Assembly: GCA_017525225.1 (NCBI GenBank)
Contig: JAFXTB010000152.1
Coordinates: forward strand, 1 to 59,400
DNA: 59,400 nucleotides
Reading direction: 5' to 3'
From: Kiritimatiellia bacterium
GTDB taxonomy: Bacteria > Verrucomicrobiota > Kiritimatiellia > RFP12 > UBA1067
The stretch's first letter is position 1. Every line of letters starts with the position of its first letter. Position numbers and translations under genes: made by a program. A model generated the notes under the pieces. The model had not been told where the DNA came from and made no database searches. It saw only the letters and a list, made by a program, of their open reading frames with translations. Of the stretch, positions 8,261-12,941 are shown one piece after another.

Positions 8261-10999
8261 CTACCTTTCGATTCCACGTACAATGTCCACCATGTCGCCG
8301 GCAGAACCCTCGAAGTAGGGATTGAGCGAGACGGCGTTTACGCCAAGTTCCTCGCCGACCTTTGCGGCGGCGTTGTCGAAGACTACCTCCGTCTCTGCCG
8401 CACGGGCGGTGAACACGATGTGGTGCAGGTTGACGCGTGCCACGTTGTTGTTGAAGTCGTAGCGTCCGTTGCTGCGATTGTCCACATGCACCCACGAAAG
8501 ATCCTTGCGGACCTCGACGCCCGCATCCAGCCGCACGTCGATTCCAAACCTGCGTGGCGCAATGCGACGCGCCTTCACGTCCTTGACATCGAACGTGACG
8601 AACTGCAGGCAGTACGTGCGACCGGGCACAAGACCTTTCGCCGTCTGCGCAAGCCTGGTCGGCGCGCCATCCTCGCGCACCAGCACGGCGAACGTGTCGC
8701 CCACGCCGCCATTGCCACCCCAGCGGCATTGGCTGCGGCGGGCAAACCCCTCATGGGAATCCGTACGCACTTTGCCAGATGCACGCCACGGCGCTGGTAG
8801 GGTCACGCGTCCCGCATGACCACTGCCGTCTGGTAGGGCGGTCGCCCCGCGACCGCCACTGAAATCCCCGTCCTGCAGGTGACCGGGACGATATCTGTAG
8901 CCATATACGGACGACAGCATGTTGGTATGGCCCTCAACCACATAATGCCGCATCAAGGCGAAGCTCCAGCGCTTCATCTCGTCATCCGCATAGTTGCAGC
9001 CCCAGTAGCCCACAGAACCGAGGCCACGGCACGAGGGGTCGTTTGCGGCAAGATTCACCTGCATGTCGAGATAGTACTTGTAGTCGACTTCGGGATGGTG
9101 CACAAGCGAGATGATCGGCATCTGGTTGAAGTTGCCGAACGCCACGCATGCGGAGGGAATCGAAAGCGGATACCATGCGCGGTGCCTGTCGAGCGTATCC
9201 GCCACATACCGTTTCAGATACTGACGCGCATCCTCTTCGGACGTTCCAGGCGTACGGCAGTACATTTCAAGCAGCAGCTTGCCGCGTCCGCGCGAAGCGT
9301 TGATGCTCGTCGCAATGAAAGCATGGTCAAGCGACGGCGTGGCAGGCTTTCCGACGATCCAGGTATAGATGACACGCTCCGGAGAATGCTCGAGATCGTA
9401 GGCTTTCAGCCCCCTCGTATACGAATCGATGGCTCGGGGAGTGGCGTAGGTCTGCTCGTCGCACGTCACGCCGGAGTAATGTGGCGCCGTCATCCCCTTG
9501 CTTTGGGAAAGCGCCTTCTGGAGCGCTTCTGCCGAAAGTCCTACAGTGCCGAGATTGGCGAGCCAGCGGTAGCCCCGCGAATGGAACGAGGCGATGGTGT
9601 CAGCCGGGATGGTGCCACCGTTTTCAGTGGTGATCGCCGGAAGAACGTGACGCTCCTCGTACTGCCAGTCGTAGCGAGGTCCTTCCCGCACCGAACACTT
9701 CGCGCACGGTGGATAGCTGAAGATATCCGCTATGGAACGTACGATCAGCCGCCCTTCTCCGTCCCCTTTCACCACGATCTCATGGGGCCCCACCGAAACC
9801 TCGCGGAACGTCTCGCAGCGCGGCGTGTCGGCGGCAATTACCTCGCGCCCGTCCAGCAGGGCGCTCATGGCTGGTAGAGGCCGCTCCTTCCCCTGGTAGG
9901 GCGGGCAGCCCCCTGCCCGCCGCACCGCAATGTACAGCCACCCGCTGCGCGGCGCAGTGAATGTGAATTTGGCAGTTGCTTTCGCTTCTGGGAGTCTTGG
10001 AGTCTTGGAGCGACCTACACCCAATGGTTCATTGAGCAGCTCCGTCGATAGGTTGTTGAGCCTCCGCCCAATTCTACATTCTCCATTCTCCATTCTACAT
10101 TTGTCATCCACCGTTCGGAACGAAAACTTCTCGCTGCAGATCTCGCGTCCGCTCGCGCGTTCCACGCCACGTATTGTCATCACACCCTGCTCGACACCCT
10201 TCGGCAAAGAGACGATGCTCGAAGGTTTGAGGGGTTGAGAGGTTTGAGGGTGGTTCCCCCCTTCAATTTTACATTTTCCATTTTCAATTCTACATTCCAG
10301 ATCGTAGTCCTCCAGCCTGCCAGACGGCACCTTGCCGAAGAAGCGGAATTCAACTTCACGCTTCGATCTGGGTATCTCCCACAGAAGCGGTGCGAACGGC
10401 ACCAGGCGTGGAGTGTTCATGGCAGAGGAGATCGTCGAGAGCTCCGTATTTGCAAGCGCGACTTCATTCTCGGCCGTCAACCTTGCATCAGCCACGTCGA
10501 ATGTCCCGGTGAAGCCGATCGCATAGAAGATCACCTGATGGACGCCTTTATCGTCGAACGGCTTGAACTGGAAGGTCATCTCCTTCCACTGCCCATCCGT
10601 GTCTTTCGGAATGGTTCCAGCGGATTTCGTCTTCTCCCATCCGGTATTTATGACAACCACGCCTGCGGCCTTGAACCTGAAATCCTTCGTGCGCACTTTC
10701 GCGGAAAGCCTGTATAGGCCGTTGGAAACAAGCTGGATGCCTGTCTGCCGTATTATGGCTTCATGCGGCTCCGGTGAGGTCGATTCAAACCGAAAGTACG
10801 GCAGTGCGCCAGGTCCGCCGGACGGCATCCATTTCACGAATCTCCTGCTGTCCGAAGAGATGTACCAGCCGATCGGATAATCCGTCTGATCCGCTTCGAG
10901 AAGGCCGTTCGCAAGAATGTTCTCGCCAGGACCGACGCTGGCGAGAAGAGGCAAGGCTGCCGCCATTGCCGACAACATGCAGAAGACTGCCGTTCGCAT
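8261..10999 (-). CDS. Secreted CBM-like protein with in-frame inserted DNA repeats
   Basis: The protein has 912 residues from ATG 10999, one base after the stop of the preceding gene, so translation is probably coupled. It has a signal peptide (MRTAVFCMLSAMAAALPLLA) and an N-terminal jelly-roll region like CBM4/9 (ENILANGLLEADQTDYPIGW). A possible TIM-barrel-like region covers about residues 470-740 (HVLPAITTENGGTIPADTIA, TWIVGKPATPSLDHAF), followed by a C-terminal beta-sandwich. I cannot name the hydrolase family or its catalytic residues. It is odd: several stretches are translated simple or hairpin repeats (residues about 230-270, 310-380 and 715-740), including CRMENGECRIG, KTPRLPEAK, RRAGGCPPYQG and GGRGATALPDG. 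They look inserted at DNA level yet keep the frame open. Confidence 0.7.
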   Translation of the reverse strand: MRTAVFCMLSAMAAALPLLASVGPGENILANGLLEADQTDYPIGWYISSDSRRFVKWMPSGGPGALPYFRFESTSPEPHEAIIRQTGIQLVSNGLYRLSAKVRTKDFRFKAAGVVVINTGWEKTKSAGTIPKDTDGQWKEMTFQFKPFDDKGVHQVIFYAIGFTGTFDVADARLTAENEVALANTELSTISSAMNTPRLVPFAPLLWEIPRSKREVEFRFFGKVPSGRLEDYDLECRIENGKCKIEGGNHPQTSQPLKPSSIVSLPKGVEQGVMTIRGVERASGREICSEKFSFRTVDDKCRMENGECRIGRRLNNLSTELLNEPLGVGRSKTPRLPEAKATAKFTFTAPRSGWLYIAVRRAGGCPPYQGKERPLPAMSALLDGREVIAADTPRCETFREVSVGPHEIVVKGDGEGRLIVRSIADIFSYPPCAKCSVREGPRYDWQYEERHVLPAITTENGGTIPADTIASFHSRGYRWLANLGTVGLSAEALQKALSQSKGMTAPHYSGVTCDEQTYATPRAIDSYTRGLKAYDLEHSPERVIYTWIVGKPATPSLDHAFIATSINASRGRGKLLLEMYCRTPGTSEEDARQYLKRYVADTLDRHRAWYPLSIPSACVAFGNFNQMPIISLVHHPEVDYKYYLDMQVNLAANDPSCRGLGSVGYWGCNYADDEMKRWSFALMRHYVVEGHTNMLSSVYGYRYRPGHLQDGDFSGGRGATALPDGSGHAGRVTLPAPWRASGKVRTDSHEGFARRSQCRWGGNGGVGDTFAVLVREDGAPTRLAQTAKGLVPGRTYCLQFVTFDVKDVKARRIAPRRFGIDVRLDAGVEVRKDLSWVHVDNRSNGRYDFNNNVARVNLHHIVFTARAAETEVVFDNAAAKVGEELGVNAVSLNPYFEGSAGDMVDIVRGIER
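8794..8821. repeat. Hairpin repeat element copy A (CTGGTAGGG family)
   Basis: The element begins CTGGTAGGG and folds back with arms GGTCA-C-GCG and CGC-A-TGACC around TCC. It lies inside the CDS 8261-10999 and is read on the minus strand as GHAGRVTLPA. Confidence 0.7.
8830..8857. repeat. Hairpin repeat element copy B (CTGGTAGGG family)
   Basis: It begins CTGGTAGGG and has a perfect 9-bp stem (GGCGGTCGC / GCGACCGCC) with a CCC loop. It lies 8 bases from copy A, in the same reading frame, and is read as GGRGATALPD. Confidence 0.75.
9893..9921. repeat. Hairpin repeat element copy C (CTGGTAGGG family)
   Basis: It begins CTGGTAGGG and has a perfect 9-bp stem (GGCGGGCAG / CTGCCCGCC) with a CCCC loop. 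It is read in a different frame from copies A and B (RRAGGCPPYQG), so the similarity is at DNA level. A degenerate copy starting CTGGTAGAGG precedes it near 9871. Confidence 0.75.
9991..10010. repeat. Tandem 8-mer GGAGTCTT, 2.5 copies
   Basis: Two and a half head-to-tail copies of GGAGTCTT lie inside the CDS 8261-10999, encoding SKTPRLP on the minus strand. They belong to a cluster of simple repeats in this gene. Confidence 0.65.
10070..10110. repeat. AT-rich CATT(C/T)-type simple repeat, copy 1
   Basis: The stretch is built from ATTCTACATT and CTCCATT units and translates on the minus strand as DKCRMENGECRIG. It closely matches the stretch at 10257-10301. Confidence 0.65.
10223..10250. repeat. 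GGTTTGAGG-type tandem repeat
   Basis: Alternating GGTTTGAGG and GGTTGAGA units lie inside the CDS 8261-10999, read on the minus strand as PQTSQPLKP. Confidence 0.6.
10257..10301. repeat. AT-rich CATT(C/T)-type simple repeat, copy 2
   Basis: The stretch is built from CAATTTTACATTTTCCATT-like units and translates as ECRIENGKCKIEGG in the same frame as copy 1. Its base composition is far more AT-rich than the surrounding gene. Confidence 0.65.
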
Positions 11000-11000
11000 G

Positions 11001-12941
11001 CTACCTGACCGGCCAGGAATCGAAGCGCACATCTATCGGCTCCAGTTCGTATTTCACGCTCCGTCCACCTACCTTCAGCACGCCCGACACCTTGCTGCGC
11101 ACGGTGTTGGCCAGTAGAAGATGCACGCGATCCCCGGCTAGCCAGGCGCGCGCTGCAATCTCGGCCGGTGCATCCTCTATCTCGGGCGGAACGCCGTCGG
11201 AAAGAAGTACCGGCTCGAACGCCTTGACCTCCTTAGCCACCGCGCAAACGTTCGGCCATGCGTCGGCAATGCGCTCCTTCGGCCACTTGTCGCGCTTGAG
11301 CGCGTCGAAGAACGAGTAGAACACAAGCCCGTTCGCGCCCGCGGCTATCGCCTGCCAGGTCATGGAGCGCAGTTCGGGATACGTAGGCAGGTGCACGGAC
11401 GGACGGTTCGTCTCGTCCGGACGGTAGTAGCCCCAGTCGAAGGCCTGCGGCACCTGCCACATCGGCTTGAATCCGTATGTCGACTTCTTCGCCTCGCGCG
11501 CCCACCCCGCGGCAATGCCGATCTCGGTACGGTCGGGTCCACCATGGTTGCCGACGGGGTAGGGGTCCATGCCTATCACGTCGAACCCGCGTACGAGCGG
11601 CCGCACGTCCCTCGGCTTGTCGAGCACTATCCACGTTGGATGGTCGGGATCCATCTCATGCACGGCCGCGCGGCGGGCGGCAAGAATCGGCTCGAAGTGC
11701 TCAGGCACCTCGTCCGCCAGATACCAGGCCATGATGGAGGGATGCATCCGGAAGCGCCTCACGTTGGCGCGGATGTATCTGGCATCCAGCTCCGCCGCCT
11801 TCTGCGGCGTCCTGGCGGAACCGATGTCCTGGAAGAATCCGCTCAGCGGGTATATGACGTGCAACCCCGCCGCTTGGCAGATATCGAGCCGGGCCTGGTC
11901 AGGACGCTTGTACGGCATCAGGCAGTTGAAGGGGGCGCCGTTGGTGTACACGGCGATGTCCTCCGCCGTCACCTCGCCCCAGTACATGCCGAGCGGGAAG
12001 AACGGACGGCCATCCAATATCGTGCGGTGGCGGGCGTCGAAGGTCACCTTGCGCGGCATGGGGCAGTACTCGCGCGTGAAGAGGCAGCAGGAACGCCCAA
12101 GAGTGGCAGTGCCGTCCTTGCGGCGTACGGACAGCGCCACCTCGTTCCTTCCATACGCCAGCGCCTCGACCGGGAGCGTGGCCGTAGCGACAGCGTTGGA
12201 CAACGTGCCGCGCACCGTGGCCGGCCCGTTGGTGGAAACATATTCAAGCACGCACTCGAGCGCCTCCACCGGGTTCTTGAGCGGATTGACGCAAAAGGCC
12301 GCACTGAAGGCGACGTCCCCTTCCCAAGCCTCGTTGCGGTAGGCGGACGTGCAGAGATGGTCGACAGGATTGGCCGCCACCGGGCGAAGGACGATCTTGT
12401 CGATCAGGACACGCCCGCTCGCGTCGCCGGAGTAGAGGAAGAAACGTCCCGCAACCGCCTTCTCGGGCAGGACGCGCGTCACACCCTCGACGCGATGCCA
12501 ACCATCCTTCCTCACGGAGTTATCGATGACACGCCGGGCGGCACCTCCGCCATAGCCGAGGTGGTGGCCATTGGCATCGTCGGCGCCGAACGACAGCGAC
12601 AGATCGCCCTTCTTGGACTTCAGGCCAGATGAGTTCATCCACGCCTCGAAACGGTATGCAAGGCCGGCCTCCACAGGTATCGAATCGGAGCAGGGCCAGC
12701 TAATCTTGTCGCCGGGCTTGGCCTCGAACACCAGCCCCGCAGAGCCATCCAGCCCGCAACCCTTCTTCACGCGCCAGAAACGAGCTGGCAGATACCTCCA
12801 GCCGTTCGTCCCGGCCTCGAAGTCTCCATTGACGAAAAGATTCGTCTCGGCATGGAGCGTGGCGGCCACCATCGCCACCAATGTAAATAGACACTTGCGG
12901 CTCGTGAACAACCGTACCATTCTTGATCTGTTGACATTCAT
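11001..12941 (-). CDS. Secreted CBM plus TIM-barrel glycoside hydrolase (GH2/GH42-clan-like)
   Basis: The protein has 646 residues. ATG 12941 lies 9 bases after AGGAGG; the ATG at 12950 touches the AGGAGG and is disfavoured. A signal peptide is followed by a CBM4/9-like jelly roll (NLFVNGDFEAGTNGW, about residues 34-190), a beta-sandwich, and a TIM barrel beginning RTILDGRPFFPLGMYWG near residue 300. The motif WYLADEVPEH carries the likely acid/base Glu. GMDPYPVGN and QAFDWGYY recur in the two paralogues at 12957 and 44914. It would cleave a glycan outside the cytoplasm; no family number can be assigned. It starts 6 bases after the preceding gene. Confidence 0.75.
   Translation of the reverse strand: MNVNRSRMVRLFTSRKCLFTLVAMVAATLHAETNLFVNGDFEAGTNGWRYLPARFWRVKKGCGLDGSAGLVFEAKPGDKISWPCSDSIPVEAGLAYRFEAWMNSSGLKSKKGDLSLSFGADDANGHHLGYGGGAARRVIDNSVRKDGWHRVEGVTRVLPEKAVAGRFFLYSGDASGRVLIDKIVLRPVAANPVDHLCTSAYRNEAWEGDVAFSAAFCVNPLKNPVEALECVLEYVSTNGPATVRGTLSNAVATATLPVEALAYGRNEVALSVRRKDGTATLGRSCCLFTREYCPMPRKVTFDARHRTILDGRPFFPLGMYWGEVTAEDIAVYTNGAPFNCLMPYKRPDQARLDICQAAGLHVIYPLSGFFQDIGSARTPQKAAELDARYIRANVRRFRMHPSIMAWYLADEVPEHFEPILAARRAAVHEMDPDHPTWIVLDKPRDVRPLVRGFDVIGMDPYPVGNHGGPDRTEIGIAAGWAREAKKSTYGFKPMWQVPQAFDWGYYRPDETNRPSVHLPTYPELRSMTWQAIAAGANGLVFYSFFDALKRDKWPKERIADAWPNVCAVAKEVKAFEPVLLSDGVPPEIEDAPAEIAARAWLAGDRVHLLLANTVRSKVSGVLKVGGRSVKYELEPIDVRFDSWPVR

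Follow-up and report, generated by a model that had tools for sequence, protein, structure and literature searches.

How three short palindromes came to lie inside one protein-coding gene, and what kind of element they represent, is the question raised by this locus of a Kiritimatiellia bacterium. The window, meaning the whole stretch of 59,400 nucleotides that was analysed, carries the three elements (copies A, B and C, Table 1) within a single minus-strand open reading frame, and they are very probably GTAG-type REPs (repetitive extragenic palindromes) residing in a gene, which a RAYT would have spread and which would persist where the reading frame was kept. The identification as GTAG-type REPs follows from a signature of GTAG plus hairpin, the many copies in the genome, the REPIN-like pairs and a twin of copy C next to a RAYT-like gene.

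Table 1. Host gene and REP copies, in window coordinates
Feature	Position	Strand	Description
Host gene	8261-11032	minus	923-aa ORF carrying REP copies A, B and C; a GH127 gene adjoins
REP copy A	8794-8821	+	CTG; GTAG 8797-8800; stem 8801-8809/8813-8821; loop 8810-8812
REP copy B	8830-8857	+	GTAG 8833-8836; stem 8837-8845/8849-8857; loop 8846-8848
REP copy C	9893-9921	+	GTAG 9896-9899; stem 9900-9908/9913-9921; 4-nt loop

The positions and hairpins described in an earlier note on this DNA hold for all three elements, which have a 9-bp stem and a loop of 3-4 nt. Copy A consists of CTG GTAG GGTCACGCG TCC CGCATGACC, with a single C.A mismatch in the stem, copy B of GGCGGTCGC CCC GCGACCGCC and copy C of GGCGGGCAG CCCC CTGCCCGCC, copies A and B being arranged head-to-tail with a period of 36. 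A covariance model, which is weak on B-type copies, scored them within the window at 33.3 bits (E 0.00024), 18.1 bits and 27.1 bits (E 0.0033), respectively, and their folding as single-stranded DNA gave -6.4, -12.6 and -12.9 kcal/mol (z -1.6, -3.9 and -2.9). Moreover, perfect cases of GTAG followed by a 9-bp stem and a loop of 3-4 nt number two in the window, and 200 Markov shuffles gave a mean of 0.04. The 9-base head CTGGTAGGG that the earlier note regarded as shared does occur three times in the window (0.18 expected), but its GGG runs into the stem, so that only GTAG is left unpaired, and the subsequent GG with its CC partner forms the stem base. The bare 9-mer showed no genome-wide enrichment (53 matches versus 85 for the reversed control) and was rejected as a family marker, whereas GTAGGG-N7-KCC-N7-CCGC, in which the hairpin is included, gave 92 matches versus 5 for its reversed control. 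The family signature is GTAG plus hairpin. Copies A and B are translated in one frame as GHAGRVTLP and GGRGATALP and copy C in another as RRAGGCPPYQ, the two coding frames having been recognised from the outset.

Searches and fetched stretches of the genome, which set lower bounds on the counts, revealed at least 126 elements in 98 insertion units on dozens of contigs, so that the family extends far beyond the three copies of the window. No mismatch was found in 117 of the 126 when G.T is counted as paired, and 35 stem/loop types were distinguished, the commonest being GGCCCGCTC-GCC (35 elements), GGCCGCCTC-GCC (23) and GGTCACGCG-TCC (15). Copy A belongs to the last of these but carries its mismatch, and its exact stem pair is found in two elements genome-wide, one besides the window, versus the 15 of the mismatch-free version; the 25-mer of copy B occurs six times in the genome counting the window (five elsewhere), and identically in several relatives. 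The covariance model returned at least 134 matches at E<=1 among the best 150 of 5602 candidates scored. The covarying stems already noticed in the three copies extend to the family, as 99.4% of the stem cells are paired in 18 representatives and 7 of 9 pairs show compensatory changes; since these representatives were picked for having hairpins, the covariation score (0.81 versus 0.21 in shuffles) and the slid controls outweigh the pairing percentage. GTAG is invariant in two alignments of elements whose members were themselves gathered by GTAG, and CT precedes it in 30 of 126 elements, a candidate TnpA-REP cleavage dinucleotide only. Elements also come in pairs, of which 22 are head-to-head, 2 tail-to-tail and 4 head-to-tail, with the head-to-head ones mostly 52-55 or 89-91 bp long, a near-constant, REPIN-like length.

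Among relatives the family is patchy, with 97 matches in its own genome, 78 in relative G026, 24 in G013 and none to the same pattern in the single same-genus genome searched; a copy-B-type pattern gave about 100 matches in G026. Among the matches listed for one subfamily pattern there are also named Kiritimatiellae, Lentisphaerae, Verrucomicrobia and Opitutales records, together with some from Anaerolineae and Luteitalea.

GTAG REPs were defined by Di Nocera et al. in 2013 and reported in the PVC superphylum, and intragenic copies were already listed there, with a maximum in the verrucomicrobium Opitutus terrae (PMC3733652). The published description matches the present family in the unpaired GTAG at one end, the stem of 6-13 bp and the short loop, as well as in the complementary stem variants forming subfamilies, the predominance of head-to-head dimers and the copies inside ORFs (PMC3733652); the likeness is to that description rather than to a consensus, the family here having GG-N7 stems and GCC, TCC or CCC loops. 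It departs from it in the large share of units that lie in frame inside genes. With REPINs/BIMEs (Bertels and Rainey 2011, PMC3116915) the family shares the 22 inverted head-to-head pairs of near-constant length, although many units are singletons and the window itself contains a head-to-tail pair and a singleton. The novelty lies in the occurrence of such a family in this lineage and in the extent to which its insertions preserve the frame.

RAYT-like (HUH/Y1) proteins are encoded at five places in the genome, and those on contigs C3, C26 and C134 have as best family NF047646 (REP-associated tyrosine transposase), at 31.7-53 bits and under the curated cut-off of 80. The earlier note had proposed to look for a REP-type transposase, and the C134 protein, with the motifs MPDHIHLM and FRRYIRENP, has CTGGTAGGGCGGGCAGCCCCCTGCCCGCCGC, identical to copy C, 58 bp downstream of its stop codon (G000:C134). 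This arrangement is comparable to the RAYT/REPtron of Nunvar et al. (2010, PMC2817692), but only in part, since no RAYT-like gene was found flanked by two inverted REPs and C134 has one, downstream only. No REPs were found near the other RAYT-like genes of this genome, and the C3 RAYT was rejected as a local REP source, having no REP within about 12 kb; as the draft consists of 180 contigs, REPtrons may have gone missing where contigs end. Two side observations concern such proteins. A 403-aa Y1/HUH protein (L037 1252-2463, G000:C3) contains in-frame direct repeats of 61-65 nt (ARQPSTMARHPDLVMNAEACQ) at both termini and in the centre, and a full GTAG...CTAC palindrome (GTAGAAGCGGAGACAGCTCCGCTTCTAC), perhaps of another REP type, lies about 45 bp past a RAYT homologue at L325 3490-3517 (G052:C79).

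TnpA-REP enzymes cut adjacent to GTAG hairpins at CT or CA dinucleotides (PMC8266576), and recognition of such hairpins in single-stranded form has been shown for those of E. coli and Stenotrophomonas. By analogy, a RAYT, as the single-tyrosine HUH transposases of the TnpA-REP kind are called, would recognise GTAG plus hairpin in single-stranded DNA and disseminate single REPs or head-to-head pairs, and it may well be the RAYTs of this genome that moved these REPs. Insertions that break a gene would then be lost, and those that leave the frame intact within a surface loop or a linker would persist and be translated as 9-31 extra residues.

Occupied and empty sites can be compared within the genome. 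One paralogue family, located elsewhere in the genome, has a common site that is empty in L029, occupied by a single REP in L015 and by a REP pair in L004, L007 and L008. At this site the difference between L004 and L029 amounts to exactly 93 nt. Moreover, two Ser/Thr kinase paralogues (L087, 1985-2010; L240, 1504-1529) carry REPs with differing stems at the same place, between the HRDIKPGNILW and DLGL motifs. Such same-site differences, in both the kinases and the L004/L015/L029 set, could be read as stem replacement. Among relatives, the occurrence of REPs goes only loosely with that of Y1 transposases, since many have a Y1 transposase and none of these REPs, and in some REP-bearing ones no Y1 transposase was detected. 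Both observations would fit a REP-like family that had no transposase of its own and spread by template switching in replication or repair or by gene conversion between hairpins already present, the RAYTs being incidental. This explanation is nevertheless unlikely, because GTAG plus hairpin is the substrate of TnpA-REP (PMC8266576), a copy-C element adjoins a RAYT-like gene and REPIN lengths are regular. A further idea, that genic REP sites are persistent slots in which stems are exchanged with the frame kept, REPs thus being a source of recurrent in-frame loop variation in the lineage, is quite improbable.

Returning to dissemination by RAYTs, the fate of the inserted copies was followed with a classifier that had learned codon usage from the window and that assessed 91 insertion units. 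In regard to the predominantly extragenic character of GTAG REPs, 28 of the 91 lie in frame within coding sequence, 35 in non-coding DNA and 26 at gene edges or in ambiguous positions. Where coding sequence on the same strand is found on both sides, the frame is open in 28 of 30 units and broken in 2; leaving out one paralogue family, 15 of 17 remain open and in frame (P ~4e-6 against 1/3). The simplest reading of this excess is purifying selection against frame-breaking copies. Inside coding sequence lie 31% of the units, versus 51% for random positions, so REPs are depleted in genes, yet far from absent. One in-frame copy is found in the glutaminase domain of a CTP synthase gene (L287 1055-1080, G000:C158), whose product contains, between LY and ERHRHRYE, about 19 extra residues (9 encoded by the REP) and apart from these is full length (E 4e-181). 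The insertion sites are presumably loops or linkers, and the lengthened proteins probably work.

The Rickettsia palindromic elements, to which the earlier note compared these copies, are likewise palindromes in frame in diverse protein genes; the comparison was right as an analogy, GTAG REPs being the nearer family (PMC3733652). That the elements are themselves of this type, selfish and specialised for protein genes, would agree with the in-frame insertion and with extra residues tolerated even in conserved enzymes. It is very unlikely, given that most units are not in frame in genes (28 of 91 are), that the genic share is below random and that R. conorii RPE-4 and RPE-6 bear a CGTC-type tag (PMC3733652), unlike the GTAG found here in another lineage, and the family is not a member of that group.

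Altogether, the analysis adds a copy-rich GTAG REP family, in a draft genome whose shared proteins suggest a Kiritimatiellae-like affiliation, and quantifies its in-frame persistence in genes, an essential enzyme included. The load of in-frame copies and the differing stems at shared sites deserve specialist attention, and translated REP inserts have to be reckoned with in gene calling and in protein families. To our knowledge REP transposition has never been directly observed and how REPs insert is a standing question, for the study of which the occupied and empty sites among paralogues of one genome are usable.

As for the host gene of the window, Pfam and NCBIfam scans of its 923-aa protein gave no family match. 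A family scan of a read-through translation likewise yielded nothing. The alignment of relatives suggested by the earlier note was made with nine homologues at 38-47% identity, one of them a paralogue in the same genome and the other eight from relatives, and all nine are without the 18-aa A+B segment and without the copy-C residues, the exact boundary of the C segment being uncertain in a variable region of the alignment. The elements of the window are thus, judging by these protein alignments, inserted and not ancestral, and together with the many copies and the covariation this bears out the mobile-type repeat family tolerant of insertion into genes that had been proposed. The alternatives that these are conserved segments of the protein, or hairpins formed by chance in coding DNA rich in GC, are refuted by the insert-free homologues, the differing frames and the genome-wide copies with covarying stems, and hardly deserve any credence, although high GC does raise chance hairpins to a mean of 1.0 loose match per window.

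The host gene contains other repeats as well. A/T-rich ones (CATTCTCCATTCTACATT) at window positions 10068-10101 and 10255-10300 are read as KCRMENGECRI and IENGKCKIE, in segments that are shorter in homologues, and an 18-mer of this repeat occurs three times in the genome versus none in the control. A GGAGTCTTGGAGTC tandem at 9988-10012, found nowhere else in the genome, coincides with about 10 residues that are extra relative to homologues.
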